Positions 43,330 to 61,525 of a stretch of 64,000 nt of DNA are shown here, in pieces; position 1 is the stretch's first letter, and each line of letters begins with the position of its first letter. Under the pieces are notes generated by a model, which was not told the origin of the DNA, did not search any database, and was given only the letters and a program-made list of their open reading frames with translations. Origin of the DNA: Sulfitobacter sp. M05 (GTDB taxonomy: Bacteria; Pseudomonadota; Alphaproteobacteria; Rhodobacterales; Rhodobacteraceae); NCBI RefSeq assembly GCF_029285175.1, contig NZ_JABEDH010000005.1, positions 1 to 64,000 on the forward strand, read 5' to 3'. Made by a program: the position numbers and the translations under genes.

Positions 43330-43735
43330 GCAAAACGGAGACACCTTATCGGATATCTAAGCCGGTAAGGTTCGCGTTGCGGACATTTCTGCGGAACGAA
43401 GCAAAGGTTCGGTTTGGGTCATATGTGCTTGACGCTTGGGTAAATATTTCCCGCCCTTCCAGCAAATCAGATCCAGAAAATACACGCCATCGAGGCAAAA
43501 ATAACGGATGTTACACAAGTGACCAGCGTAGCAGGTTCTTGTGCCGCTCGAGGTTGGATTTGTATCTGGCGACTGCTTGATGGTTACAATTTCTGATGGT
43601 TTGGTGCAGGTTAATCAGGCTGCCAATCAACTTGTCATTGATTGACGGCACAGGGCAACTGATATCTGATTGTCCGGGGATTATCATGTTGATCACTCGC
43701 AATACGGGTGGCACAGCGACAAATGGGAGAAGTCG
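43330..43735. other. Regulatory region upstream of the TRAP operon
   Basis: About 400 bases without a gene. A 10-base inverted pair with one mismatch (ACCTTATCGG at 43343, CCGGTAAGGT at 43362) after the TenA stop may form a terminator without T-run. GATGGTT occurs twice near 43580-43600. No TGCATTAWAGTGC-type site like those upstream of the ligase gene and boxC was found. Confidence 0.5.
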
Positions 43736-44770
43736 ATGATTTTACGTAGAACTTTGATGGGGGTTGCAGGTGCTGCTGTTGCTGCGACCCTGATGGCGAC
43801 CACTGCCATGGCGCAGGAAGTCACGTTGCGCATGCACCAGTTCCTGCCACCGCAGGCCAATGTGCCAAAGCTGGTGCTGGACGTTTGGGCTGACAAGGTT
43901 GAGGCCGCAAGCGAGGGCCGCATCAAGATCGAGCGCTACCCCTCCATGCAGTTGGGTGGCAAGCCGCCGGAACTGATGGATCAGGCCATCGACGGCGTTG
44001 CAGACATCGTCTGGACCGTGGTTGGTTATACGCCGGGCCGTTATCCATCGACAGAGGTCTTCGAACTGCCGTTCATGATGACCAATGCCCGGGCAATGTC
44101 TTCTGCCTATTGGCAGATGTTTGAAAAGCACATGAAAGACAGTGAATTCAAGGATGTGCATATCCTCGGCACATGGGTACACGGCCCTGGCATGATTCAC
44201 GTCAACAAAGAGGTGAATGCCCCCTCCGACATGGAAGGCCTGAAAATTCGTGGTGGCTCCCGTCTGGTGAACCAGCTGCTTGAGAAGGTTGGCGCAACCC
44301 CGGTCGGTATGCCCGTGCCTGCGGTTCCAGAAGGTCTGTCAAAAGGTGTGATCGACGGCACAACCATCCCTTGGGAGGTCACCGCGGCCCTCAAGGTGCC
44401 AGAGTTGGTATCAAACCACACCGAATTCGAAGGCAACGCGCTTTATGTGCTGACCTTTGTTCTGGCGATGAACAAGGACCGCTATGAAGGTCTGCCAGCA
44501 GAACTGCAAAAGGTAATCGACGACAATTCCGGTCTGGAGTTTTCGATCTTTGCAGGTGGCACACAGGCTGACAGTGACATTCCGGCCCGTCAGGCAGCTG
44601 TGGATCGTGGCAACACCATTGTGACCGTTAGCGGCGACGATGTGCAGGCATGGCGTGATGTGGCCCAGCCGATCTATGACGAATGGATCGCGGACATGAA
44701 AGGCAAAGGCATCGACGGTCAGGCATTGATCGACGAAGCCCGTAGCCTGATGGAAGCTTACGACAAGTAA
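43736..44770 (+). CDS. TRAP transporter substrate-binding protein (DctP family)
   Basis: A 344-residue periplasmic DctP-type binding protein. Signal peptide (RRTLMGVAGAAVAATLMATT) ends at AMA-QEV. Domain markers are LRMHQFLPPQANVPK, the conserved QLGGKPPELMDQAIDGVADI and MEGLKIRGGSRLVNQLLEKV (short parts). The arginine for carboxylate binding is likely in the IRGGSR segment. Position before the box cluster suggests that it imports benzoate or a related aromatic acid, an inference. Confidence 0.9.
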   Translation: MILRRTLMGVAGAAVAATLMATTAMAQEVTLRMHQFLPPQANVPKLVLDVWADKVEAASEGRIKIERYPSMQLGGKPPELMDQAIDGVADIVWTVVGYTPGRYPSTEVFELPFMMTNARAMSSAYWQMFEKHMKDSEFKDVHILGTWVHGPGMIHVNKEVNAPSDMEGLKIRGGSRLVNQLLEKVGATPVGMPVPAVPEGLSKGVIDGTTIPWEVTAALKVPELVSNHTEFEGNALYVLTFVLAMNKDRYEGLPAELQKVIDDNSGLEFSIFAGGTQADSDIPARQAAVDRGNTIVTVSGDDVQAWRDVAQPIYDEWIADMKGKGIDGQALIDEARSLMEAYDK

Positions 44771-44841: not shown

Positions 44842-45423
44842 ATGCACCGCGCCGTTCAAACCCTCGCCCGTTTTACTGCATTGACGGGGGGCTTCGTCTT
44901 AATTGCGTTGATTGTGCTGGCCTCCCTTTCGATTGTCGGGCGGTCCATCAACAAAGCCCTGCACAACGACTTTTTCCAACAGACCTTTGCTGGCGGTGCG
45001 CAGTGGCTCCTTGATCTGGGCGTGGGCGAAATTAACGGCAATTATGAAGTTTTAGAGGCCGGCGTCGCCTTTGCGATTTTCTCGTTTCTGCCGATCTGCC
45101 AGTTCTACGGCGCCCATGCGACGGTGGACATCTTTACCTCGATGATGTCACGCGGCGTCAACAGGTGGATTGCCGCGTTCTGGGAGGTGGTGCTGGCCGC
45201 CGCAATCCTGCTGGTGATCTGGCGTCTCTATGAGGGCATGTTGCGCTATCTTGGAAATGGCGAAACCACGTTGTTCTTGCAGTTCCCAGTGTGGTGGGCC
45301 TATGCCGCCAGTTTTGGCGCGGGAGTTGTGGCCTGTATCGTCGCGGTCTATTGCGCGGCTGTGCGGATAATCGAAGCGCTGGGCAATCGCGATATCCTGC
45401 CGTCCGAGCATGGGGAACACTGA
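44842..45423 (+). CDS. TRAP transporter small permease (DctQ)
   Basis: A 193-residue four-helix membrane protein of the DctQ family: TM1 FTALTGGFVLIALIVLASLS with VGRSIN, a conserved helix near FCQFYGAHATVDIFTSMM (as ICQFYGAHATVDIF), then AAFWEVVLAAAILLVIWRLY. It pairs with the large permease for sodium-driven uptake. Its stop is one base from the DctM ATG at 45425. Confidence 0.9.
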   Translation: MHRAVQTLARFTALTGGFVLIALIVLASLSIVGRSINKALHNDFFQQTFAGGAQWLLDLGVGEINGNYEVLEAGVAFAIFSFLPICQFYGAHATVDIFTSMMSRGVNRWIAAFWEVVLAAAILLVIWRLYEGMLRYLGNGETTLFLQFPVWWAYAASFGAGVVACIVAVYCAAVRIIEALGNRDILPSEHGEH

Positions 45424-45424
45424 G

Positions 45425-46744
45425 ATGAGCAACCTTGAACTAGGCTTTTATTCATTCCCCGTCCTGTTGTTGATGGTGTTTCTGCGTGCGCCTATTGGCC
45501 TTGCCATGCTGCTGTGTGGTTTTGGCGGTTGGTACTTTGCCATGGGAGGCAACCCCACGCCGTTGCTCGCCAAGATGAAATCCGAAACCTACACGACCTT
45601 TTCCAGCTATTCGCTGAGCATCATTCCGATGTTCCTGCTGATGGGGCAGTTCGCAACCCTTTCGGGCATGTCACAAGCCTTGTTCAAAGCCGCAGAAGGG
45701 TTCCTCGGCCATCGGCGCGGCGGCGTTGCGATGGCGGCAGTTGGTGCCTGCGCGGGTTTTGGTGCGATTTGCGGATCGTCCTTGGCCACGGCTGCGACCA
45801 TGTCCAAGGTCGCCTTGCCCGAACTCAAGCGCTACGGCTATTCAGGCGGCTTCTCGACGGCAACGCTGGCCGCTGGTGGCACGCTTGGCATTCTGATCCC
45901 GCCGTCGGTCATCCTTGTGATTTACGCCATTCTGACCGAACAGAATATTGCCAAACTGTTCCTTGCCGCCTTTATCCCCGGCATCTTGGCGGCTGTTGGC
46001 TATATGCTGACCATTTCCATTTATGTTCGCCTGCATCCTGATGCGGCCGGCACCCGCGCGCCGATCCCGATGGCGGAACGGTTCCGCGCCCTGGCGGATT
46101 GTTGGCCGGTTCTGACGATTTTTATTATCGTTGTTGGGGGCATCTATGCTGGATGGTTTACCCCAACCGAAGGTTCCGCCATTGGGGCGGCGGGCACCGG
46201 GCTGGCGGCATTGCTGTCGGGCAGCCTGAGCTGGAAGGTTCTGGGTGAAAGCCTGTTGGGCACTGCGCGCACCACCGGCATGATCTTTTTCATCGTATTG
46301 GGAGCAGGGTTCTATAACGGCTTTCTTGCCCTGTCTGGTGTGCCGCAATTCATGGCCGGCTGGGTGGTTGAGCAAGGGTTTTCCCCGTTGCTGGTGTTAT
46401 GTGTGATCCTTGTTTTCTATGTGGTCTTCGGGTGTTTGATGGACAGCCTGTCGATGATCCTGCTGACAGTGCCGATCTTTTTTCCGGTCATTATGGCGAT
46501 GGATTTCGGCATGTCACCAGAACATCTGGCGATCTGGTTTGGCATCCTTGTGCTGATCGTGGTCGAAGTTGGGCTGATCACGCCACCGGTGGGGATGAAC
46601 CTGTTCATCATCAATTCGATGGACCGCGAAACCCCAATGTCTCAGACCTATCGCGCCGTGATGTATTTTGTCGGCTCTGATCTGGCGCGGGTCGTGCTTT
46701 TGGTGTTGTTCCCTGCGATCACGCTGTTTCTCTTGCCGGACTGA
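45425..46744 (+). CDS. TRAP transporter large permease (DctM)
   Basis: A 439-residue DctM-type membrane transporter with about twelve helices. Conserved segments are LRAPIGLAMLLCGFGGWY, the PMFLLMGQFATLSGMSQ helix hairpin, ICGSSLATAATMSKVALPEL, and GTLGILIPPSVILVIYAI. It forms the sodium/substrate symport channel. Start at 45425 has GGGGAA upstream; an ATG at 45410 is possible. Confidence 0.93.
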   Translation: MSNLELGFYSFPVLLLMVFLRAPIGLAMLLCGFGGWYFAMGGNPTPLLAKMKSETYTTFSSYSLSIIPMFLLMGQFATLSGMSQALFKAAEGFLGHRRGGVAMAAVGACAGFGAICGSSLATAATMSKVALPELKRYGYSGGFSTATLAAGGTLGILIPPSVILVIYAILTEQNIAKLFLAAFIPGILAAVGYMLTISIYVRLHPDAAGTRAPIPMAERFRALADCWPVLTIFIIVVGGIYAGWFTPTEGSAIGAAGTGLAALLSGSLSWKVLGESLLGTARTTGMIFFIVLGAGFYNGFLALSGVPQFMAGWVVEQGFSPLLVLCVILVFYVVFGCLMDSLSMILLTVPIFFPVIMAMDFGMSPEHLAIWFGILVLIVVEVGLITPPVGMNLFIINSMDRETPMSQTYRAVMYFVGSDLARVVLLVLFPAITLFLLPD

Positions 46745-46834: not shown

Positions 46835-48382
46835 ATGCTATCTGTTAAGGCAAATGCGGCGCAGTATTTTGTGGATCGTCACATCACCGAAGGGCGGGGC
46901 AGTAAGACCGCCTATGTCGAGGCCGAGACGGGGCGTGAATTGGATTTTGCGCAGATGGCAACAGGTGCGGGTCAGGTTGCTGGCGCGTTGGGCAAGGCAG
47001 GTATCCGCCCGGAAGAACGCGCCGCGGTATTGGTGCTGGACCAGATCGAGTTTCCACAGATTTTCTGGGGTGCATTGAAATGCGGTGTGGTGCCGGTGCC
47101 TTTGAACACCTTGCTGGCCACGCCCGTCTATGATGCGATCCTGCGCGATAGCCGAGCCGCCATCCTTTTTGTTTCCGCCCCGCTTTGGGAGGTTGTCGCC
47201 CCAGCGCTGGCTGATAACCCTTATATCCGTCAGGTGGTTGTGATCGGTGATGCGCCTGCGGGGACGATGGATTTCAACGCCTTTATCAATGACGCCCCGG
47301 TGCATGAGACCATGGCGGTCAGCAGCGACGAGGTTGCCTTCTGGCTCTATTCCTCCGGCTCTACCGGTCAGCCCAAAGGGGTGGCGCATGTCCATTCCGC
47401 GCTTCAGGCCACCGCCGATACCTACGGGGCGCAGGTTCTGGGCATCCGCGAGGATGACAGGGTGCTTTCCGCCGCCAAGTTCTTTTTTGCCTATGGTCTG
47501 GGCAACGAGATGACCTTTCCGCTATCGGTCGGTGCCACCACCGTGTTGTTTACCGGGCGGCCAACGCCGGCGGGGATGATCGAAACGATTGCCAATCATC
47601 AGCCGACAGTTTTTTGCGGTGTGCCCACGCTTTACGCCGCGATGGTTGCCGAAATGGACAAGGTTGGCGTGCCGGCCTCTCCGATACGGGTCTGTATTTC
47701 TGCGGGTGAAGCTTTGCCCGAAGATATCGGCAAGCGCTGGGAAAAACACACAGGTATCGGCATTCTCGACGGGGTCGGCTCGACAGAGATGCTGCATATT
47801 TTTCTGAGCAACCAGCCCGGAGATATTGTCTACGGCACCTCGGGTATTGCGGTGCCGGGCTACGCGCTGCGACTGGTGGATGAACAGGGGCAAGAGGTGG
47901 GCACCGGAGAGATCGGTGAGTTGCTGGTCAATGGGGCATCAGCGGCAAACGGGTATTGGAACCAGCGCGCCAAAAGCCGCGCCACCTTTGAAGGGGCTTG
48001 GACCCGCACCGGTGACAAATATGAACGCCGCGCTGATGGACGATTGGTGTACTGCGGGCGGACCGACGACATGTTCAAGGTTTCCGGCATCTGGTTGTCC
48101 CCGTTTGAGGTCGAAAGCGCCATCGTCGACCACCCGCGTGTGCTTGAGGCGGCTGTGGTTGCCCAACGTGATGCAGACGGGCTGGAAAAACCCAAAGCCT
48201 ATGTGGTGATGCAATCGGGAGAGGCGGATCAAGCGTTGGTGGACGAATTGAAAGCCCATGTGAAACAAAAGATAGGCTTGTGGAAATACCCCCGCTGGAT
48301 CGAGGCCGTGACCGATTTGCCCAAAACCGCGACGGGTAAAATCCAACGCTTCAAACTGCGGCAGGATACGCAACAGCGATGA
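46835..48382 (+). CDS. bclA: Benzoate-CoA ligase
   Basis: A 515-residue acyl-adenylate-forming enzyme that activates benzoate to benzoyl-CoA with ATP, the first step of the box pathway. The ANL P-loop is YSSGSTGQPKG near residue 171, followed by AKFFFAYGLGNEMTFPL, the aryl-CoA-ligase motif, and the C-terminal lysine in KTATGKIQRFK. GCGGAGGGG precedes the ATG. Benzoate specificity is inferred from family resemblance and adjacent box genes; 4-hydroxy- or 2-aminobenzoate are alternatives. Confidence 0.92.
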   Translation: MLSVKANAAQYFVDRHITEGRGSKTAYVEAETGRELDFAQMATGAGQVAGALGKAGIRPEERAAVLVLDQIEFPQIFWGALKCGVVPVPLNTLLATPVYDAILRDSRAAILFVSAPLWEVVAPALADNPYIRQVVVIGDAPAGTMDFNAFINDAPVHETMAVSSDEVAFWLYSSGSTGQPKGVAHVHSALQATADTYGAQVLGIREDDRVLSAAKFFFAYGLGNEMTFPLSVGATTVLFTGRPTPAGMIETIANHQPTVFCGVPTLYAAMVAEMDKVGVPASPIRVCISAGEALPEDIGKRWEKHTGIGILDGVGSTEMLHIFLSNQPGDIVYGTSGIAVPGYALRLVDEQGQEVGTGEIGELLVNGASAANGYWNQRAKSRATFEGAWTRTGDKYERRADGRLVYCGRTDDMFKVSGIWLSPFEVESAIVDHPRVLEAAVVAQRDADGLEKPKAYVVMQSGEADQALVDELKAHVKQKIGLWKYPRWIEAVTDLPKTATGKIQRFKLRQDTQQR

Positions 48383-48858
48383 GGAAGGACAGCCGTCCGA
48401 CACCCCGGCTGTCAGATATGGCCGCGCCGATACCCATGCCGCCACATGCCTATGTGCCCGGTCTAAACCCGCGCCTACCGGAAGACTGGTTTGACGCGAT
48501 CAAGAGCACCGTACAGGTCGGGGTTTCACTGGCGGATCTTCAGCACACACAGGCGTTTCGGGCTGGATTGGCATATCTCGACGCGGGATATTACTGGGAA
48601 TGTCACGAGGTGCTTGAGGCGGTCTGGATGCAGACCCCAGAAGGCACGGCGGAGCGCGAGATGGTGCAGGCCTTGATCCAGCTGGCCAATGCACAGTTAA
48701 AGGTTCGTATGGGACGCCCCCGTGCGGCAACAAGACTGTGCGACATGGTGCAGGACCATTTGCAGAACTGTACGGAAGGACAGCCGATTCTCGGCCTGCG
48801 GTCTAAGGCGGTGCTGGCGCAGGTGGAAACGCTGCGGGCATATCTAGCCAACGAATAG
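48379..48858 (+). CDS. DUF309 domain-containing protein
   Basis: A 159-residue protein whose ATG overlaps the ligase stop (ATGA). The DUF309 signature is DAGYYWECHEVLEAVWMQTP and a following EREMVQALIQLANAQLKV helix, with the conserved E-C-H-E. The fold is a small helical bundle of unknown function. The tight coupling ties it to benzoate activation. An ATG at 48418 is an alternative start. Confidence 0.85.
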   Translation: MRKDSRPTPRLSDMAAPIPMPPHAYVPGLNPRLPEDWFDAIKSTVQVGVSLADLQHTQAFRAGLAYLDAGYYWECHEVLEAVWMQTPEGTAEREMVQALIQLANAQLKVRMGRPRAATRLCDMVQDHLQNCTEGQPILGLRSKAVLAQVETLRAYLANE

Positions 48859-48969: not shown

Positions 48970-50628
48970 ATGACCAAGGTGATTGATTTTCAAACGGATC
49001 CATCCAGATACCGCCACTGGGGCATCGAATATGATGGCCCGATTGCCTGGCTTTCGATGGATGTGGACGAGAGTGGCGGGTTGTTCGAGGGGTACGAGCT
49101 GAAGCTGAACAGCTATGATCTTGGGGTGGACATCGAACTTGCCGATGTGGTGCAGCGGATGCGGTTCGAACATCCGGAGGTCAAGGTCGTGGTCATGCGC
49201 TCGGCCAAGGAAAAGGTGTTCTGCGCTGGTGCCAACATCCGAATGCTGGGCGGCGCGGCGCACGCGCATAAGGTCAATTTTTGCAAATTCACCAATGAGA
49301 CCCGCAACACCTATGAGGCAGCGCTTGCCGACAGTGGGCAGAATTATATCTGTGCAATCAAAGGGGCCTGCGCGGGCGGCGGTTACGAGTTGGCGCTGGC
49401 GTGCAATCACCTGATGCTGACCGACGATTCCACCTCTTCGGTGGCACTTCCAGAGGTGCCGTTATTGGCCGTTCTGCCCGGTACTGGGGGCCTCACGCGC
49501 GTGACGGACAAACGCAAAGTGCGCCGCGATCTGGCGGACGTCTTCTGCTCTATTGAGGAGGGGGTGAAGGGCAAACGCGCTGTGCAATGGCGGTTGGTCG
49601 ATGAAGTTTTTGCGAATTCCAGCTTTGACGAAAAAGTCGCTGAACGCGCTGCGGAATTTGCCAGTGCCTCGGCCAAACCCGACGTGACTCAGGGTATCGC
49701 ACTCTCCCCGATTAACCGGCAGTTTGCCACAGACGCAGTGACTTATTCCTCTGTCGAGGTCGGTTTGAACCGTGCCGAAAGCCGTGCTGTGATCACTGTT
49801 AAGGGGCCGGAAACAACGGCGCCGGCAGATATGGATGCCTTTACCGCAGAAGGGGCGCAGGCATGGATGCTGCGTTGCGCGCGCGAGTTGGACGACGCAA
49901 TCCTGCATTTGCGCAACAATGAGAAACATCTGGGGCTGATCGAGTTCCAGACACAGGGTGATCCCGAATTGGTGATTGCACATGAGGCCCTGCTGCTGGC
50001 CCACAAGGATCACTGGCTGGCGAACGAGGTGCTGCACTATTGGAAACGTGTGTTGAAACGGATCGACATGACGTCACGCTCGCTGGTGGCGATGGTGGAG
50101 CATGGAAGCTGCTTTGCCGGACCACTTGCGGAACTGCTTTGGGCGGTTGATCGCAGCTATATGATGCTGGAAGAGTTTGACGGCGACAACCGCCCCTTGG
50201 CCCGCGTAACACTGTCAAACGGGAATTTTGGCACCTATCCGATGGGCAATGACCTGACGCGGCTTGAAACCCGGTTCCTAGGCACGCCGGAACAGGTGGA
50301 AGAGCTGAAAAATTCGGCTGGTGCGGCGTTGGAAGCGGAGGCCGCTGAAGAGCTTGGCCTAATCACCTATGCCTACGACGATATTGATTGGGAGGACGAG
50401 GTGCGCCTGTTCATGGAAGAGCGTGCCAGTTTCAGCCCGGATGCAATGACCGGCATGGAAGCCAACCTGCGTTTTGCTGGCCCCGAAACCATGGAAACAC
50501 GCATTTTCGGGCGCCTGACCGCCTGGCAGAATTGGATTTTCCAACGCCCCAATGCGGTAGGCCCCGAAGGCGCGCTGCAACGCTACGGCACTGGTGTGCG
50601 CGGAAAATACGACATGGAACGTGTGTGA
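48970..50628 (+). CDS. boxC: 2,3-epoxybenzoyl-CoA dihydrolase (benzoyl-CoA-dihydrodiol lyase)
   Basis: A 552-residue BoxC of the enoyl-CoA hydratase superfamily, opening the ring of 2,3-epoxybenzoyl-CoA with loss of formate to 3,4-dehydroadipyl-CoA semialdehyde. Crotonase features: FCAGANIRMLGGAAHAHKVN, IKGACAGGGYELALACNHLM and LPEVPLLAVLPGTGGLTRVT (short parts). The long C-terminal half with MLEEFDGDNRPLARVTLSNG is specific to BoxC. AAGGGGAGCC precedes the ATG. Confidence 0.95.
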   Translation: MTKVIDFQTDPSRYRHWGIEYDGPIAWLSMDVDESGGLFEGYELKLNSYDLGVDIELADVVQRMRFEHPEVKVVVMRSAKEKVFCAGANIRMLGGAAHAHKVNFCKFTNETRNTYEAALADSGQNYICAIKGACAGGGYELALACNHLMLTDDSTSSVALPEVPLLAVLPGTGGLTRVTDKRKVRRDLADVFCSIEEGVKGKRAVQWRLVDEVFANSSFDEKVAERAAEFASASAKPDVTQGIALSPINRQFATDAVTYSSVEVGLNRAESRAVITVKGPETTAPADMDAFTAEGAQAWMLRCARELDDAILHLRNNEKHLGLIEFQTQGDPELVIAHEALLLAHKDHWLANEVLHYWKRVLKRIDMTSRSLVAMVEHGSCFAGPLAELLWAVDRSYMMLEEFDGDNRPLARVTLSNGNFGTYPMGNDLTRLETRFLGTPEQVEELKNSAGAALEAEAAEELGLITYAYDDIDWEDEVRLFMEERASFSPDAMTGMEANLRFAGPETMETRIFGRLTAWQNWIFQRPNAVGPEGALQRYGTGVRGKYDMERV

Positions 50629-50699: not shown

Positions 50700-52151
50700 A
50701 TGCTCGACCTAATTAACGTAAGTTATGACACCCAAATCCCGAACAATGTCGGCCTGTCCGAGGACAAGAAGGTATTGAAGGCGCTGGAAAAATGGCACCC
50801 CGGTTATATCAACTGGTGGAATGATTTGATCCCGCAGAACTTTCAGGAAAGCATGGTTTACCTGCGCACCGCCGTCAGTGTTGATCCAAAAGGCTGGGCG
50901 AAATTCGACTATGTGAAGATGCCGGAATACCGCTGGGGTGTTTTGTTGGCCCCGGCGGTTGAGGATCGTAAAATCCCGATGGGCGAACATATGGGCGAAC
51001 CGGCATGGCAGGAAGTGCCCGGTGAATACCGCAATATGCTAAAGCGGTTGATTGTCATTCAGGGCGATACCGAACCGGGCTCAGTGGAGCAGCAACGCTT
51101 TCTCGGGCTGACCGCGCCGTCGCTTTATGACATGCGCAATCTGTTTCAGGTGAACGTCGAAGAGGGGCGCCACCTTTGGGCGATGGTATATCTGTTGCAA
51201 AAGTATTTTGGCCGCGACGGGCGTGAAGAAGCAAACGATATGCTGGTGCGCTCATCAGGTGACGAAGATGCGCCGCGTATGTTGGGGGCATTTAACGAGG
51301 AAACGCCAGACTGGCTGTCGTTTTTCATGTTCACTTATTTCACTGACCGCGACGGCAAGATGCAGCTTGAAAGCCTTGCACAATCGGGTTTTGATCCTTT
51401 GTCACGCACCTGCCGCTTTATGCTGACCGAGGAAGCGCACCACATGTTTGTCGGGGAAACCGGTGTGGGTCGTACCATTCAGGCAACGCTTGAGGCGATG
51501 GCCAAGGCTGGCATCACGGATCCATACGACATCAATAAAATCCGCGATCTGGGGGTGATCGACCTGCCTACGATCCAGAAGAAGCTGAATCTGCATTACA
51601 CATTGTCGCTTGATCTGTTTGGTCAGGAGGTATCGACCAACGCCGCCAACGCCTTTAACGCCGGGGTCAAAGGGCGTTACATGGAGCAGCGGATCGATGA
51701 TGATCACCAGCTCAAGGATGACACCTATCCCGTGACCTCGATTAAAGAAGGCAAGATCCTGACCGAAGACGTGCCTGCGTTGACCGCGATCAACATGCGC
51801 CTGCGGGATGATTATGTGCGCGATGCCGCGGGGGGCGTGGGCCGTTGGAACAAGCTGATTGCCAAATCCGGTATCGAATTTGAGTTGAAGCTGCCGCATG
51901 AAGGTTTCCACCGCCAGATCGGTGTCTTCTCGACTGTGGCGGTAAGCCCGGCGGGGGATGTAATTTCAGCAGATGAATGGCACCAGCGTCGTGATGAATG
52001 GCTGCCGACCAAGGCAGATGGGGATTTCATCCAGTCGTTGATGGTGCCCTGTTTCGAACCTGGCAAATATGCCTCGTGGATTGCGGCCCCGAAAGTCGGG
52101 ATCGACAATAAACCGGGTGATTACGAATACGTCAAACTGCACATGGCTTAA
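50700..52151 (+). CDS. boxB: Benzoyl-CoA 2,3-epoxidase oxygenase subunit
   Basis: A 483-residue BoxB, the di-iron monooxygenase that epoxidises benzoyl-CoA with electrons from BoxA. Carboxylate/histidine ligand helices are seen at VNVEEGRHLWAMVYLLQKYF and LTEEAHHMFVGETGVGRTI (short parts), matching the class I di-iron fold. GAAGGAGGAAGC precedes the ATG, the strongest site in the cluster. Length is normal. Confidence 0.96.
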   Translation: MLDLINVSYDTQIPNNVGLSEDKKVLKALEKWHPGYINWWNDLIPQNFQESMVYLRTAVSVDPKGWAKFDYVKMPEYRWGVLLAPAVEDRKIPMGEHMGEPAWQEVPGEYRNMLKRLIVIQGDTEPGSVEQQRFLGLTAPSLYDMRNLFQVNVEEGRHLWAMVYLLQKYFGRDGREEANDMLVRSSGDEDAPRMLGAFNEETPDWLSFFMFTYFTDRDGKMQLESLAQSGFDPLSRTCRFMLTEEAHHMFVGETGVGRTIQATLEAMAKAGITDPYDINKIRDLGVIDLPTIQKKLNLHYTLSLDLFGQEVSTNAANAFNAGVKGRYMEQRIDDDHQLKDDTYPVTSIKEGKILTEDVPALTAINMRLRDDYVRDAAGGVGRWNKLIAKSGIEFELKLPHEGFHRQIGVFSTVAVSPAGDVISADEWHQRRDEWLPTKADGDFIQSLMVPCFEPGKYASWIAAPKVGIDNKPGDYEYVKLHMA

Positions 52152-52228
52152 GGCATCGCCGCTCCCCGTTTGGCATGGCCTGCGGGGGGCAAGCGTTACC
52201 GACCAGCCGAAAAAAGGGAGTTCCTTTC

Positions 52229-52399
52229 ATGCACGCTCAACAAGCTATCGGCTATGCGCCCCGCACCCGGGCGCTGGCCCGCGACCTTGAGGCCCAGCAC
52301 ATGGTCTGCGTCGGGTGTGACGATTGTAGGGGCATCTGCCAGGCGCTTTTGGATTCGATCTTGATCCCGAATCTGATCCTGAAAGACCGCCGCCCATGA
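52229..52399 (+). CDS. 56-residue four-cysteine protein between boxB and boxA
   Basis: A 56-residue protein starting MHAQQAIGYA. C27, C30, C33 and C37 form C-x2-C-x2-C-x3-C, the spacing of half a bacterial ferredoxin; this could bind one [4Fe-4S] cluster or zinc. The ATG has AAAAAAGGGAG upstream and the stop overlaps the boxA ATG (ATGA). It could be an electron-transfer or assembly partner of BoxA/BoxB. I do not recognise the family; the real-gene call rests on the motif, start site and coupling. Confidence 0.75.
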   Translation: MHAQQAIGYAPRTRALARDLEAQHMVCVGCDDCRGICQALLDSILIPNLILKDRRP

Positions 52400-53565
52400 A
52401 CCAGCCCGTCAAACAGCACCTGATCGACCCCGAGATTTGTATTCGTTGTTATACATGCGAAATGACCTGCCCGATTGGCGCGATTGAACATGACGATATG
52501 AATGTCGTGGTGAACGCCGACATTTGCAATTTCTGCATGGACTGCATCCCCGTCTGCCCGACCGGCTCGATCGACGAATGGCGCGTTGTGGCAGAGCCTT
52601 ACACGCTGGCCCAGCAATACGAGATGGAAGAGTTGCCAGAGCAGGAGGATATTGAAGTGGCCGCCGAGAGCGGCGCAGATGATCCGATTGAGACCTTGCT
52701 TGCTGAAGCGCACAAGGGGGCGGGCGGCAAGGCCAAACCACCGGCGTCAGCAAGCAAACCTGCGATCAATATGTACACCCTTGGCAAGCCGGCAACCCTG
52801 AAGGTGCAGGGCAATTACCGGCTGACCGATGATCCCGAACACGACGTGCGCCACATCATCCTTGATCCCGGTGCCCTGCCGTTTCCGGTGCTGGAGGGGC
52901 AATCCGTGGGCATCATCCCGCCCGGCAAGGATGCGGATGGCAATGCCCATCTGCCACGGCTCTATTCCGTTTCCAGTCCACGCGATGGCGAGCGGCCCGG
53001 CTATCATAATATTTCGCTGACGGTGAAACGCGAAGACAAAGGGCTGGCCTCGAATTTTCTGTGTGATCTGAAACTGGGCGACAGCGTTGATGTCACCGGC
53101 CCGTTTGGCGCGACCTTTCTGATGCCTTCCACACCCGACGCGCACCTGCTGTTGATCTGCACCGGCACGGGATCGGCCCCGATGCGGGCCTTTACCATGC
53201 AGCGCCAGCGCAGTGGGGCAACGGGCGGCATGACAATGTTCTTCGGGGCGCGCAGCCCAGAAACCCTGCCCTACTTTGGGCCGCTCAAGAAAATACCCGA
53301 CAGCCTACTGAAAAAGCATCTGGTTTTCAGCCGCCTGCCGGATCAGGATAAGGAATATGTGCAGGACCGGATGATTGCCGAACAGGACAGCATTGCGGAA
53401 ATCCTGCAAGATGAAAAAACCCATATCTATATCTGCGGTTTGCGCGGGATGGAGGAGGGGGTGGAGCTTGCCCTGACCTCAATTGCAGAGAGCATGGGGC
53501 AACAGTGGACAGCCCTGCGCGACGCCATGCGCGAAGACGGACGTTATCACGTGGAGACCTATTGA
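52396..53565 (+). CDS. boxA: Benzoyl-CoA 2,3-epoxidase reductase subunit
   Basis: A 389-residue BoxA, the NADPH-dependent reductase that feeds electrons to BoxB. The N-terminal 2x[4Fe-4S] module uses C15, C18, C21, C25 and C44, C47, C50, C54; the rest is a ferredoxin-NADP reductase with FAD site RLYSVSSP and the NADP motif LLICTGTGSAPMRAF. A linker at about 75-120 joins them. It overlaps the 56-residue gene and is directly followed by the thioesterase gene. Confidence 0.96.
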   Translation: MNQPVKQHLIDPEICIRCYTCEMTCPIGAIEHDDMNVVVNADICNFCMDCIPVCPTGSIDEWRVVAEPYTLAQQYEMEELPEQEDIEVAAESGADDPIETLLAEAHKGAGGKAKPPASASKPAINMYTLGKPATLKVQGNYRLTDDPEHDVRHIILDPGALPFPVLEGQSVGIIPPGKDADGNAHLPRLYSVSSPRDGERPGYHNISLTVKREDKGLASNFLCDLKLGDSVDVTGPFGATFLMPSTPDAHLLLICTGTGSAPMRAFTMQRQRSGATGGMTMFFGARSPETLPYFGPLKKIPDSLLKKHLVFSRLPDQDKEYVQDRMIAEQDSIAEILQDEKTHIYICGLRGMEEGVELALTSIAESMGQQWTALRDAMREDGRYHVETY

Positions 53566-53988
53566 ATGAGCGCGCCATTTGTCCATCCGATCAATGTGAC
53601 ATGGGGGGATTGTGACCCTGCGCGCATCGCTTACACGGCGCGGCTGCCGTATTTCGCGCTGGATGCCATCAACGCATGGTGGGAGGCGCATTTTGACGGC
53701 GAAGGCTGGTTTCAAATGGAGATCGACCGTAATGTCGGCACGCCGTTTGTACGGATGGAGTTGAACTTTCGCAGTCCCGTCACCCCACGCCATACCTTGA
53801 TCTGCGAGACATTCCCGACCAAGCTGGGCAATAAATCAATCACCTTTGCGGTCAGGGCCTCGCAAGATGGTGTGTTAAGTTTCGAGGGCAGTTTTACTTG
53901 TGTGTTCACCATTGCTGATCAGTTCAAAAGCCGGAGCGCGCCAGACTATATGCGCCAGATCATCGAGCCGTTGATCCGTGATGTGTGA
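53566..53988 (+). CDS. Hotdog-fold acyl-CoA thioesterase
   Basis: A 140-residue 4-hydroxybenzoyl-CoA-thioesterase-like protein. The key motif WGDCDPARIAYTARLPYFA contains the catalytic aspartate (D17 type) of the 4HBT family. It would release CoA from stalled aryl-CoA or dead-end products. The ATG follows the boxA TGA directly, so it is in the same operon. Exact substrate inferred from context. Confidence 0.87.
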   Translation: MSAPFVHPINVTWGDCDPARIAYTARLPYFALDAINAWWEAHFDGEGWFQMEIDRNVGTPFVRMELNFRSPVTPRHTLICETFPTKLGNKSITFAVRASQDGVLSFEGSFTCVFTIADQFKSRSAPDYMRQIIEPLIRDV

Positions 53989-54021
53989 ACCGCAAGACCG
54001 TTCAGCGTGGTGTCGTGCAAT

Positions 54022-54933
54022 ATGAGTCCGCCGGTTGCAAAGATGAATGCCCCCTCGGACCAATCAATGGATGCCGGATCCAGATTGATCCGCACCCTCG
54101 CGGTCAAGGTTGCAGCCCTGCGCAAACAGCGCGGATTGTCGCGCCGTGTCCTGTCAGAGATGTCGGGTGTCTCCCCGCGCTATCTGGCGCAGCTTGAGGC
54201 CGGCGAGGGCAATATTTCTGTATTGCTGTTGCAGCGGGTGGCAGGGGCGCTTGATGTGCGCATCGAGGCCTTGTTGACCGAACAGGCCCCATTGGATCAC
54301 GACGTCCTGCGGGTGGCGGCCCTGTATCATCAGGCCCCCGAGGATGTGCAGCAACGCGTGTGCAGTATGCTGGCCCCGCAAAACCCGCGCCTGTTGCGGG
54401 CGGGGCGCATCTGTTTGATCGGATTGCGCGGGGCCGGTAAGTCAACGCTGGGCGCAAGAGCGGGGCAGGCGCTGGGCATCCCCTTTGTCGAATTGAATCG
54501 CGAGGTCGAGGCCGCAGCGGATATGCCGCTGGCCGAGGTGATGGCGTTTTATGGCGAGGCGGGATATCGCAAGCTGGAGGCCGAAGCCCTGGAACGGGTC
54601 GGTACCCGCCATGATCGGGTCATTCTGGCCGTGGCTGGCGGGATCGTGGCGGAAGAAGCCACGTTTTCGCATCTGCTGGAGCGGTTTCATACGGTCTGGG
54701 TCAGAACCAGCCCGGCCGAACATATGCAGCGCGTGCGCGGGCAGGGGGATCACCGCCCGATGCAGGGCAACCCTGCGGCGATGGCCCATCTCAAGGACTT
54801 GCTTCAGGCCCGTTCGCCATTTTATGCGCGGGCCGAAGCGCAGGTCGATACGTCCAACCGCACGGTTGGATCGTCGCTGAACACCCTGCTTGCCGCTGTG
54901 GCCAAGCATCGGTTTCTAGAACCCGGACTATGA
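54022..54933 (+). CDS. boxR: BoxR, benzoyl-CoA-responsive regulator (HTH + shikimate-kinase-like)
   Basis: A 303-residue regulator: XRE-type HTH at about 30-85 (LSEMSGVSPRYLAQLEAGEG) joined to a shikimate-kinase-like domain with Walker A GLRGAGKS at 134-141 and FVELNREVEAAADMPLAEVM. This HTH/shikimate-kinase fusion defines BzdR/BoxR, which represses benzoate genes and is relieved by benzoyl-CoA. Starts at 54007 (GTG) and 54043 are alternatives. Its stop overlaps the next ATG. Confidence 0.93.
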   Translation: MSPPVAKMNAPSDQSMDAGSRLIRTLAVKVAALRKQRGLSRRVLSEMSGVSPRYLAQLEAGEGNISVLLLQRVAGALDVRIEALLTEQAPLDHDVLRVAALYHQAPEDVQQRVCSMLAPQNPRLLRAGRICLIGLRGAGKSTLGARAGQALGIPFVELNREVEAAADMPLAEVMAFYGEAGYRKLEAEALERVGTRHDRVILAVAGGIVAEEATFSHLLERFHTVWVRTSPAEHMQRVRGQGDHRPMQGNPAAMAHLKDLLQARSPFYARAEAQVDTSNRTVGSSLNTLLAAVAKHRFLEPGL

Positions 54934-55433
54934 TCAGGAACGATGCGGTGCGGGCCGTGCAGGATCTGTTCTGGCAGGCGGGTGAACGGCTGATGTATCA
55001 CCACACCAATCCTTGGGAGCTGGACGCGGCGCTGTGCGCTTGGGGATATGATTTGGGGGTTTGCGAGGCGCAGGATTTACTGGGGTTGGACAAGGTGCTG
55101 GCGCGTGTGCCTGAACGGGCAGTTCCGATCCTGTCGCGCATGGTGGCCGAGGGGCGGATTGGCAAAGTCGGTGGTGTCGGATATTTTCGCTATCCTGGTG
55201 GTGGCGGGGCGGTGATTGATCCGTTGATCGAGGATTTGATTTTAGAAGAAGCGTGGTTCGGCAAGGTCACCCGGTCGGACCTGCCTGATGACGCGCTTGT
55301 TATCGCAATGCACCACGCGTTGCATCCGATCTGTGCCGAATTGCGCAACGCGGGGGCGGATAAAACTGAGGTGACGCATCTTTTGCACCGCGCCATCCAT
55401 TTCCCATTGAACAAGATGCCCGACTGGCTCTGA
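54930..55433 (+). CDS. Stand-alone 3-hydroxyacyl-CoA dehydrogenase C-terminal domain
   Basis: A 167-residue protein resembling the 3HCDH_C region of FadB/FadJ: GVCEAQDLLGLDKVL, GRIGKVGGVGYFRYPGGGG and DPLIEDLILEEAWFGK, then a partial second repeat. The NAD-binding and hydratase domains are missing, so it cannot act as a dehydrogenase alone. The ATG overlaps the boxR stop. It may be a binding subunit or regulator in the box operon. Confidence 0.75.
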   Translation: MIRNDAVRAVQDLFWQAGERLMYHHTNPWELDAALCAWGYDLGVCEAQDLLGLDKVLARVPERAVPILSRMVAEGRIGKVGGVGYFRYPGGGGAVIDPLIEDLILEEAWFGKVTRSDLPDDALVIAMHHALHPICAELRNAGADKTEVTHLLHRAIHFPLNKMPDWL

Positions 55434-58670: not shown

Positions 58671-59924
58671 TCAGGGAAATTCAACAGCCGGAACGATTTT
58701 GCCGGCGCAATCGCCAAAGCCGATGCGAAAGCCGTCTCCCTGTGCGTGGCCGCTCAGGGTTAATGTATCGCCGTCTTCGATAAAGGTGCGGGTTTCGCCG
58801 GTGGTCAGGGTGAACGGGTCACGCCCAGCCCAAGAGATTTCCATAAGCGATCCGTATTCGCCGGCAACCGGACCTGAGATGGTGCCTGAGCCAAGCAGGT
58901 CGCCGGGGTTCATGCCGCAGCCGCCGACGGCATGGTGGCACAGTTGTTCCGCGGCGGAATAATACATCCGGTTATAGTTGGTTTTCGTGATCGTGGTCGC
59001 CGCTACAGCGCCTTCAGGTTGCATCGATACGGTAAGTTCGATGTCATAAAGGCCGTCGACCGTACTGTCCAAATAGGGCAGCAGCTGTTTTTCACGTGGC
59101 GGTGTTGGCGTGCGGAATGGATCCAATGCGGCAGCTGTGACGATCCACGGGCTGATCGTTGTGCCAAAGGCCTTGCCCTGAAACGGGCCAAGCGGCTGGT
59201 ATTCCCAGCCCTGAATGTCACGGGCGGACCAGTCGTTCAGCAGCACATAACCAAAGATCAGCGCATCTGCTTCGTCGACGGTGATGGGGTGGCCCATGGG
59301 GGTGCCGGTGCCGACGATTGCGCCCATTTCCAGCTCGATGTCCAATCGTGTGGACGGCCCAAAGCTTGGCATTTCGGCGTCGGGTGCTTTGCGTTGCCCA
59401 TTGGGGCGGTTGATCTCTGTGCCTGAAACAACAACTGAGGAGGCGCGTCCGTTGTAACCGACAGGAATGTGCAGCCAGTTGGCTGGCAAGTCGGGCGATC
59501 CACGCAATATCGCGCCCATGTTTTTTGCGTGCTGCATCCCGGCATAGAAATCAGTGTATTCAGATACCGCGATGGGAAGGTGCAGTTCCGCCTCTGACAA
59601 TGGCACCAGATGCGGGGCGACTTTGGCCTGTTCGGGGGCATCGGTGATCAGCAGTTCAATCAGCCGCGCGCGCAAGCTGGCCCAGGTGTCAGACCCCATT
59701 TCCATCACATCGTTCCAGTAGGGCACGTCAAATACCGGATCATCGCCGATCGTCACGATACCCGCCTCTTCCAACGCGGCCATATCAAGCACCATATCGC
59801 CAATGGCCACGCCACACCGCGCTTCAAGGCGGTTGGTTGAGAACACCCCATACGGCAGGTTGTTCAATGGGAAGTCGGTGTCGGCGGAATTGGCGCTTTC
59901 GACCCATGATGTCAGTCGTGTCAT
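58671..59924 (-). CDS. fahA: Fumarylacetoacetase
   Basis: A 417-residue fumarylacetoacetate hydrolase, splitting fumarylacetoacetate to fumarate and acetoacetate, the last step of tyrosine/homogentisate breakdown. N-terminal domain begins with SWVESANSADTDFPLNNLPY; catalytic domain has YTDFYAGMQHAKNMG, LDIELEMGAIVG, LLNDWSARDIQGWEY and GCGMNPGDLLGSGTISGP (metal and catalytic Asp/Glu/Lys conserved). ATG 59924 has GAGAGGACAAAG upstream. Confidence 0.95.
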   Translation of the reverse strand: MTRLTSWVESANSADTDFPLNNLPYGVFSTNRLEARCGVAIGDMVLDMAALEEAGIVTIGDDPVFDVPYWNDVMEMGSDTWASLRARLIELLITDAPEQAKVAPHLVPLSEAELHLPIAVSEYTDFYAGMQHAKNMGAILRGSPDLPANWLHIPVGYNGRASSVVVSGTEINRPNGQRKAPDAEMPSFGPSTRLDIELEMGAIVGTGTPMGHPITVDEADALIFGYVLLNDWSARDIQGWEYQPLGPFQGKAFGTTISPWIVTAAALDPFRTPTPPREKQLLPYLDSTVDGLYDIELTVSMQPEGAVAATTITKTNYNRMYYSAAEQLCHHAVGGCGMNPGDLLGSGTISGPVAGEYGSLMEISWAGRDPFTLTTGETRTFIEDGDTLTLSGHAQGDGFRIGFGDCAGKIVPAVEFP

Positions 59925-59996
59925 TCTTTGTCCTGTCCTCTCGGAGCGGGCCATTGGCCCAATGTTCGCTGTAATGGCTGGTTGCCAGTGATCTGA

Positions 59997-60167
59997 TTAA
60001 TCGGGGCGGTCCCATTGTCCCCGTTCAGGGCCGCGTAACTCGTGGCCGGGACCCTTGCCATATCTGTCCGGGCGCTGGTTGACAAATTTCTGCCACCAGG
60101 CCCAGAGAATAAAGCACAGGACAAACGCCAGAAATACCAGCATCAAGACGCCCAAAAATTCGATCAT
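59997..60167 (-). CDS. 56-residue single-pass membrane peptide between hmgA and fahA
   Basis: A 56-residue protein starting [20 protein letters not shown] with one membrane helix (residues 3-23), then [20 protein letters not shown] and a charged tail ([11 protein letters not shown]). The ATG overlaps the hmgA TGA (ATGA), so it is translationally coupled. The fahA ATG is 72 bases further on. I do not recognise the family. It may anchor pathway enzymes or aid transport. Confidence 0.65.
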
Positions 60168-61525
60168 TTCTGTCCCGGTGTACCGTCGAATTTCTTTTCG
60201 ATGTCACTCCAGCAGTCGATGTAATCGTCCTGAAGCGGCGCCTCTTTTGCGGCAAATTCGGTCAGGTGCTGGGGGAAACGGGTTTCGAACATAAAACTCA
60301 TGGTGTTGTCGAGCTTTTCCGCTTCGAGCTTTGCGTTTGAAGCACCTTCAAAAGCGTTTTTGTCCGGCCCATGTGGCAACATCATATTATGCAGCGACAT
60401 GCCGCCGGGCACGAAACCTTGCGGCTTGGCGTCATACTGGCCGTAGATGTTGCCCATCATTTCGGACATGACGTTCTTATGATACCATGGCGGGCGGAAG
60501 GTATCCTCGGCGACCATCCAACGTTCCCGAAAGAGCGCAAAGTCTATGTTTGCTGTGCCTTCCACACCAGAAGGCGCTGTCAGGACGGTAAAGATCGACG
60601 GATCAGGGTGATCGAACAGGATCGCGCCCACAGGGCAATAGGTGCGCAGGTCGTATTTCACCGGCGCGTAGTTGCCATGCCATGCGACCACGTCCAGCGG
60701 GGAGTGGCCGATGTGGGTTTCGTGAAACTGGCCGCACCATTTGATTGTCACTGTGGACGGGACCTCGCGATCCTCAAACGCTGCCACGGGGGTTTTGAAG
60801 TCGCGCCGGTTGGCCATGCAGTTGGCCCCGATCGGGCCACGGCCCGGTAACTCGAATTTCTGTCCGTAGTTTTCACAGACAAAGCCACGCGCCGGCCCCT
60901 CAAGTACCTCGACACGGTAGAGCAAACCACGGGGCAGAACGGCAATTTCCTTGGGTTCCAGATCAATCACACCCAGCTCGGTGCAGAACCGCAAACGGCC
61001 CTCTTGTGGAACCACAAGCAATTCGGAATCTGCGGAATAGAAATAGCTGTCGACCATGCTTTCGGTCACCAGATAGATGTGGCTGGCCATGCCGACCTGC
61101 GTGTTCACGTCGCCGGCGGTGGTCATGGTGCGCATGCCGGTCAACCATGTCAGTGGGGCGTCAACATGCGGTACCGGATCCCAACGGTATTGGCCCAGGC
61201 TGGTCACATCCTCGGGGATATGCGGCGCTGATTTCCAATAAGGCAGGTCAATCCGTTCGTAGCGATGGGAATGCTTCACTGATGGGCGGATGCGGTAGCA
61301 CCATGTGCGTTCGTTCTGGTGCGAGGGGGCGGTAAAGGCCGTACCGGTAAGCTGTTCGCCATAGAGGCCATAGTTTACCTTTTGCGGGGAGTTCATCCCT
61401 TGAGGCAGGGCGCCGGGCAGGGCCTCTGTTTCAAAGTCGTTCCCGAAGCCGGGCATGTAGCCTTCATGCGTGCCCATCGGTGTGGTGGCAGTGGTCAATT
61501 CGCTTGGCGTCAGCTGACGGTTCAT
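60164..61525 (-). CDS. hmgA: Homogentisate 1,2-dioxygenase
   Basis: A 453-residue HmgA, the Fe(II) enzyme that opens the ring of homogentisate to maleylacetoacetate. Family features: [32 protein letters not shown], the iron-ligand segment [20 protein letters not shown] (histidine and glutamate) and [11 protein letters not shown]. Length is standard. It is first in the operon with the membrane peptide, fahA and the MBL gene; no maleylacetoacetate isomerase (maiA) is present in the window. Confidence 0.96.

Follow-up and report, generated by a model that had tools for sequence, protein, structure and literature searches.

The 64,000-nucleotide stretch of DNA analysed here, hereafter the window, carries on its forward strand a gene cluster for aerobic benzoyl-CoA (box) metabolism in the order dctP-dctQ-dctM, benzoate-CoA ligase, DUF309, boxC, boxB, microprotein, boxA, thioesterase and regulator. 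The TRAP transporter genes dctP (43670-44770, PF03480), dctQ (44842-45423, PF04290) and dctM (45410-46744, PF06808) are followed by the benzoate-CoA ligase (46835-48382, TIGR02262), the DUF309 gene (48379-48858, PF03745), which is a frequent member of box clusters, boxC (48970-50628, TIGR03222), and boxB, encoding the diiron benzoyl-CoA epoxidase (50700-52151; TIGR03225, 903 bits, above the cut-off). The boxA reductase gene (52396-53565; TIGR03224, 505 bits, above the cut-off) encodes FAD/NAD-binding domains recognised by Pfam and two Cx2Cx2Cx3C motifs starting at residues 15 and 44. A 4HBT-type thioesterase (53566-53988, PF13279) comes next, and then an HTH plus shikimate-kinase-like regulator (54007-54933) that matches NF006015, the anaerobic benzoate catabolism regulator, and which we take to be of the BzdR/BoxR type. 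After the regulator, also on the forward strand, an open reading frame of 167 aa (54930-55433) gives a weak match, just below the curated cut-off, to a 3-hydroxyacyl-CoA dehydrogenase C-terminal domain, and genes for fumarylacetoacetase and homogentisate 1,2-dioxygenase on the reverse strand (58671-61525) represent another aromatic pathway, downstream of the box genes and close to them.

The microprotein gene occupies positions 52229-52399 of the forward strand, and its translation, read from the sequence and aligned with 54 homologues, is MHAQQAIGYAPRTRALARDLEAQHMVCVGCDDCRGICQALLDSILIPNLILKDRRP, 56 aa followed by a stop. The first-pass annotation had described a 56-residue reading frame with a Cx2Cx2Cx3C motif at residues 27-37 between boxB and boxA, preceded by a ribosome site of its own and overlapping boxA in ATGA, and the translation and the TIGR03225 and TIGR03224 neighbours bear this description out. 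The cysteines are residues 27, 30, 33 and 37, within the segment CVGCDDCRGIC located by translation and motif scan (codons 52307-52339); the likely ribosome-binding site AAGGGAG (52214-52220) lies 8 nt 5' of the ATG; and at 52396 the microprotein stop overlaps the boxA start in ATGA. An alternative in-frame start at 52175 would lengthen the protein and is possible, but the spacing in homologues, most of which have a Met 25-26 residues N-terminal to the first Cys (15-22 in a minority), mostly matches the shorter 52229 start. The window's own genome gave no second copy, either at E 1 with the sequence or at E 0.001 with the profile.

This microprotein is a genuine, conserved and selected gene of an undescribed Rhodobacterales family. 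The motif Cx2Cx2Cx3C occurs three times in the window, once in the microprotein and twice in the BoxA ferredoxin domain, and not once in any of 20 mononucleotide shuffles of the window, so its presence is not a matter of chance. In alignment A1 (45 rows), M1, the four cysteines, G35 and P47 are invariant, and in alignment A3 (55 rows) the same positions plus L40 are invariant. The A1 rows were chosen by a pattern that fixes the cysteines and limits position 35 to G or K, and in the scan used for A3, G-x-C and a good part of the helix after it were fixed, while P47, C27, C30 and C33 were free. A3 excludes L188, which is frameshifted, and L164, for which no start codon stands at the listed start. 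Because these alignments were partly selected for cysteines, the boxB-boxA gaps provide a freer check of conservation. There are 40 gaps of more than 190 bp. An intact homologue is present in 37; of the other three, G017 has a divergent four-Cys reading frame, G009 a frameshifted copy and G109 a degenerate one. The four-Cys ligand pattern is thus kept in 38/40 long gaps and in 55/55 aligned rows, the motif being in part selected for, and broken copies are few (frameshifted in G009 and in G143, which is L188, and degenerate in G109). The aligned homologues are 47-74 aa long, mostly 54-58.

The protein is also under purifying selection, as measured by pooled pairwise dN/dS (NG86). The ratio is 0.21 for the window copy with four copies of the window's genus (n = 5), 0.139 (about 0.14) for 4 Sulfitobacter-type box-linked copies, 0.10 for 4 Mameliella copies and 0.31 for 8 more divergent box-linked copies. 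Pfam and NCBIfam have no model for this family, and the accessible portions of the box-cluster literature (PMC5489048, PMC4498308, PMC9873259) make no mention of a protein like it.

Across genomes, the family is confined almost entirely to Rhodobacterales, the window's own group, whose members are mostly aerobic. In 295 genomes of the window's family, a single-sequence search at E 0.01 found the microprotein in 47, with some doubt about the weakest match, and profile A1 found it in 49 at E 0.001, or 47 after removal of the chance matches G001 and G093, the retained 47 including the two frameshifted copies G009 and G143. The order sample gave 53/292 genomes by profile (G356 marginal), with all matches inside the window's own family, while in the class sample (289 genomes, profile, E 0.001) the only matches besides the window were two, at E 6e-4 and 9e-4, treated as chance. 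A pattern scan of titled records yielded at least 59 loci with the microprotein; among the matches listed, most are titled as Rhodobacteraceae, Rhodobacterales or their genera, three as Alphaproteobacteria only, and one is a box-linked copy in a Rhizobiaceae-titled MAG. A plasmid search with one relative as the query gave no match at E 1e-4.

The association with the box locus within the family is strong. Both boxA and the microprotein are found in 40 of the 295 family genomes, boxA alone in 18, the microprotein alone in 7 and neither in 230 (Fisher p = 3.6e-28, with genomes treated as independent and relatedness not corrected). In other words, the microprotein is present in 40/58 genomes with boxA, a count that takes in the frameshifted G009, vs. 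7/237 without it, a count that takes in the frameshifted G143 as well as G220 (75% complete, with boxB present and boxA not found). The remaining 18/58 boxA genomes have no microprotein at E 0.001, and among them is G017, with its very divergent four-Cys reading frame in the same place. Apart from G119, a boxA fragment that was left out, 57 boxA loci were examined, and the count of adjacency to boxA placed an intact homologue in the boxB-boxA gap of 37 of them, with the same 4-base overlap in 28/37. The other loci comprise 15 with a gap of at most 116 bp and no copy, the three already mentioned (G009, G017 and G109), and two, G080 and G213, in which boxA stands apart. The window's genus itself includes G055, whose box cluster has a gap of 83 bp and in which no microprotein was found at E 0.001. 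Homologues do lie beside boxA, their cysteines are constant and frameshifts are few, so that neither of the findings which the first-pass annotation named as refuting it was made. In four Mameliella genomes (L177, L178, L180 and L187, near 6001-6165; further loci L242, L244 and L245) a BzdR-like regulator adjoins a copy of the microprotein, and in L177 this copy is preceded by an SDR and an acyl-CoA synthetase (NF009232-like); 3/4 of these genomes also showed a boxB-boxA copy, whereas the fourth, G524, has a contig that stops past boxB.

This location would suit a dedicated electron-transfer partner, that is, a half-ferredoxin which takes electrons from the reductase BoxA and passes them to the diiron site of BoxB, and the strong linkage with boxA and boxB, the 4-base overlap and the ferredoxin-like motif all speak for it. 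BoxA and BoxB are described as a two-protein system in which BoxA, a reductase with two [4Fe-4S] clusters, makes no more than transient contact with BoxB and acts in small amounts (PMC4498308), so that a mobile carrier is conceivable. Against a dedicated partner, the microprotein is missing from 18/58 boxA genomes of the family and from the boxB genomes elsewhere in the class sample: boxB is present in 54/289 genomes of the class sample, 52 of them outside the window's family, and the microprotein was found at E 0.001 in 0/52 of these; likewise, no such reading frame was seen in 28 outside-family boxB loci read with 1.5-kb flanks. In 19/28 of those loci boxA was not found either (tblastn E 1e-8, about 1.5 kb of flank; L213, L214, L217-L233). 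Moreover, BoxA retains both of its own Cx2Cx2Cx3C motifs intact in 37/37 loci with an adjacent microprotein, and therefore the microprotein is no substitute for a lost BoxA motif. Both ferredoxin motifs are kept in 54/57 of the BoxA sequences as a whole; in the other three, those of G169, G095 and G069, which have no microprotein, the second motif is altered, its second Cys being replaced and three cysteines left (e.g., CDHEMACLGPC; L081 3267-, L085 2803-, and L086 on the minus strand, oriented 1416-).

Where boxA and boxB are separated, the microprotein follows boxB and not boxA, which also counts against a carrier belonging to BoxA: in G080 and G213, boxA is on a separate contig from boxB and the microprotein stays with boxB. 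In these two genomes the separate boxA adjoins boxC or the benzoate-CoA ligase (L099 5758-7853 and L053; L100 7013-8791 and L075). The gene order, with the microprotein remaining beside boxB when boxA is elsewhere, speaks for a factor in maturation or iron-sulphur assembly that serves BoxA or the diiron enzyme BoxB, a reading that we nevertheless consider very unlikely, since many BoxA/BoxB pairs exist without the microprotein and its constraint persists in genomes that have neither protein.

Among 50 chosen handles, 23 have neither BoxB (none at E 1e-40) nor BoxA (none at E 1e-60), which, minus 3 duplicates (G106=L143/G513, G193=L151/G519 and G143=L188/G526, each counted once) and minus 1 frameshifted copy, leaves 19 distinct genomes with an intact copy; the handles were picked for their orphan look, and 19 is a count of cases and not a frequency. 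Four of the 19 (L142, L144, L149, L179) are metagenome assemblies, for which the absence of box genes is less sure. The set includes seven Leisingera and one MAG of the Leisingera clade, and also Sedimentitalea arenosa, Pseudodonghicola xiamenensis, Marinibacterium profundimaris and the pair G266/G311. Box-bearing relatives were found in S. xiamensis, P. flavimaris, and G341 plus five others of the genus of G266, in which the six other tested members keep the box genes; in those relatives whose loci were read, the microprotein lies between boxB and boxA. Furthermore, 15/19 of the box-less loci adjoin a YcaQ-LacI gene pair, and the same pair flanks several box clusters. On a YcaQ+LacI tree (24 rows, quick method), the box/box-less label changes at least 4 times, with G266/G311 additional. 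The tree itself cannot tell loss from gain, and loss of the box genes is the simpler reading because they stand on both sides in the gene order.

The box-less copies could then be decaying remnants left by deletion of the box genes, and thus uninformative on function. The YcaQ-LacI neighbourhood fits such an origin, frameshifts do exist, both without box genes (G143/L188) and beside boxA (G009), and the orphan pair L149/L151 has a dN/dS of 0.59, which indicates weaker constraint. Against decay, the 8 Leisingera-clade copies have intact cysteines and a dN/dS of 0.132, close to the 0.139 of the Sulfitobacter-type box-linked copies, compared with 0.047 for the neighbouring thioesterase and 1.5-1.7 for the microprotein DNA in its other two frames; the other comparisons involving orphans give 0.13-0.33, although several have a saturated dS (>1) and are rough. 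In addition, G266 and G311 retain, among the genes found, only the TRAP, DUF309 and microprotein genes of the cluster (DUF309 at L246 4453-4848 and L240 8601-9041); no ligase or boxC was seen in the stretch read, nor any BoxA or BoxB in the genome. For the Leisingera clade the remnant reading is already disfavoured, and as a general account we regard it as highly improbable. Given these low ratios, most orphan lineages seem to have retained the protein under purifying selection, and because it is kept in relatives that have neither BoxA nor BoxB, its function is probably a separate one.

These genomes also bear on what the first-pass annotation had made of the protein, namely a new component of the epoxidase system, serving BoxA and BoxB in electron transfer or cluster assembly. 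The location supports the idea of a new BoxA partner in part and the distribution weakens it: the enrichment with boxA (40/58 vs. 7/237) holds, yet the gene is missing in 18/58 boxA genomes and kept in 19 box-less ones. A dedicated role in electron transfer or assembly is not supported, in view of the 18/58 and 52/52 genomes that do without the microprotein, the 19 orphans and a gene that follows boxB, and an electron-transfer partner proper seems to us quite unlikely. Nor does the microprotein depend on BoxA/BoxB to the point of being lost with them, since intact copies survive in the 19 box-less genomes with a Leisingera dN/dS of 0.13.

What surrounds the box-less copies differs from lineage to lineage. 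In the Leisingera clade a thioesterase is directly 3' of the microprotein; dctM is the next gene upstream in that clade and in L143, L144, L149 and L151, and G266 and G311 also have it upstream, separated from the microprotein by DUF309. None of the neighbours was found to be constant across these orphan loci: the TRAP, thioesterase, DUF309 and regulator genes are each missing from some of them. Two candidates were rejected in particular. The TRAP transporter is not a constant partner, given that, in a check of G507, G520, G523, G239, G217 and G143, the two genomes G217 and G143 (the latter with the frameshifted copy) had no DctM at E 1e-100, and the link is unspecific, with DctM in 17/20 control genomes that lack boxA and the microprotein. 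PaaA, the phenylacetyl-CoA epoxidase and a relative of BoxB, is not a general partner either: it is present in 13/18 orphan handles (12/17 distinct genomes, as G193 = G519) vs. 49/100 of the family, and is missing in G217, G266, G311, G520 and G523.

The putative metal site is judged here from the resemblance of the protein to known ones. The window protein matches no Pfam family at E 1, and its two weak NCBIfam matches are both Fe-S proteins. When the profile was compared with PDB sequences, the top matches were only [4Fe-4S] segments, the best being PsaC (E 4.5e-5 with A1, about 0.005 with A3), a score that sums two half-motif matches of E 0.15-0.23 each alone where shown. Fer4_18 and Fer4_2 each match 12/55 members, and none of the 55 gives a significant match to a curated Fer4 model (best E 0.0021). 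Of the families weakly matched by the 55 members in Pfam, 7/11 are of Fer4 type, and no family name among them points to zinc; exceptions outside the Fe-S proteins among the weak Pfam and NCBIfam matches include DUF2112, RRM_10 and a CobW-related selenoprotein model. The ferredoxin-like cysteine motif claimed in the first-pass annotation is in this way supported, by weak profile, Pfam and NCBIfam matches to Fe-S segments. The likeness appears to lie mainly in the 15-17 residues around the cysteines and does not amount to membership, and any Cx2Cx2Cx3C peptide would score against Fe-S proteins.

The microprotein shares its cysteine spacing, with C-[VIL]-G-C usually opening the motif, with the ferredoxin/Fer4 half-motif, as in PsaC and the BoxA N-terminus. 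Unlike a ferredoxin with two cluster motifs or a remote cysteine, it has a single cluster motif, mostly no proline after the fourth Cys (residue 38), where ferredoxins normally have one, and helical flanks in a low-confidence model. This AlphaFold model, built with 55 sequences, predicts helix 11-22, a cysteine loop and helix 38-51 (mean pLDDT 62.5, pTM 0.29). The LdhH-type Fe-S subunit (NF045670) is matched weakly by 25/55 members, the window copy aligning over residues 22-52 and hence beyond the motif, but E is 0.0047 at best against a 706-position model, and the window copy scores 11.8 bits vs. a cut-off of 800. An origin from the BoxA ferredoxin domain is not supported, hhalign aligning only 15 columns with a probability of 1.9%.

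The scarcity of the ferredoxin-type proline also lends some weight to a Zn- or thiol-based regulator of the locus, such as a small adaptor or redox switch with no Fe-S cluster. Copies that sit beside uptake or regulator genes where the oxidase genes are absent would agree with it, as would the second Mameliella copy beside the acyl-CoA synthetase, the SDR and the BzdR-like regulator. However, C-[VIL]-G-C-x2-C-x3-C is a pattern similar to that of Fe-S sites, and the weak Pfam matches lean to Fer4-type families, with no zinc family by name, and so we hold such a regulator to be rather unlikely. On sequence resemblance, the candidate metal is more likely [4Fe-4S] than Zn.

Our tentative preference, at somewhat less than even probability, is that the microprotein is a small metal-binding protein, probably half-ferredoxin-like with a [4Fe-4S] cluster, which serves aromatic-acid loci in an accessory redox or sensing role and is not a subunit of BoxAB. 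The four cysteines would hold one metal centre, probably [4Fe-4S], between the two short helices, and the protein may form a homodimer with two clusters. With some putative partner, it would either be a small redox carrier in an accessory role or sense redox state, iron or oxygen, in a task that would serve aromatic-acid uptake and CoA-ester breakdown. Its usual home would be the boxB-boxA gap of the box cluster, with a role not limited to BoxA/BoxB, and it would not belong to the epoxidase as a stoichiometric component. Beside the published BoxA/BoxB system the microprotein is common, yet it is missing from many box genomes and present without box genes.

The closest concept found in print is that of the semidoxins, or half-ferredoxins. 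Designed semidoxins are reported to dimerise and bind two clusters, and the natural peptide PD1 (protodoxin-1) to bind Fe-S in a mixture of monomeric and dimeric forms; natural semidoxins are reported to appear rare, to be about 30 aa long and to come so far only from thermophilic anaerobes, their functions being untested (PMC12648291). As far as that description goes, the microprotein is similar in being free-standing, very short (56 aa) and provided with one [4Fe-4S]-type motif. The semidoxins of about 30 aa are, however, modelled as beta-alpha-beta, whereas the microprotein family has 47-74 aa and a helix-loop-helix predicted at low confidence (pLDDT 62.5), and the rarity of semidoxins in thermophilic anaerobes differs from a family common in Rhodobacterales; the two are set apart here by description. 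It is possible, if doubtful, that we are dealing with a natural half-ferredoxin family of oxygen-respiring bacteria, with one [4Fe-4S] cluster per chain and two per homodimer, functioning as a minimal carrier or an oxygen or iron sensor in aromatic-acid metabolism.

It is moderately surprising to find in aerobes an undescribed microprotein family that is under selection and resembles a half-ferredoxin. If its cysteines hold an Fe-S cluster, it would be a naturally conserved half-ferredoxin in aerobic bacteria. As a family of semidoxin type, if true, it would be the first outside the anaerobes to offer a genomic context together with broad conservation and selection that can be measured. The pairs of box-bearing and box-less relatives, such as Sedimentitalea xiamensis vs. 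S. arenosa, and the Leisingera clade, make its role separable from that of BoxA/BoxB. Should the Fe-S reading be true, many benzoate clusters would have had an unrecognised accessory gene added to them.
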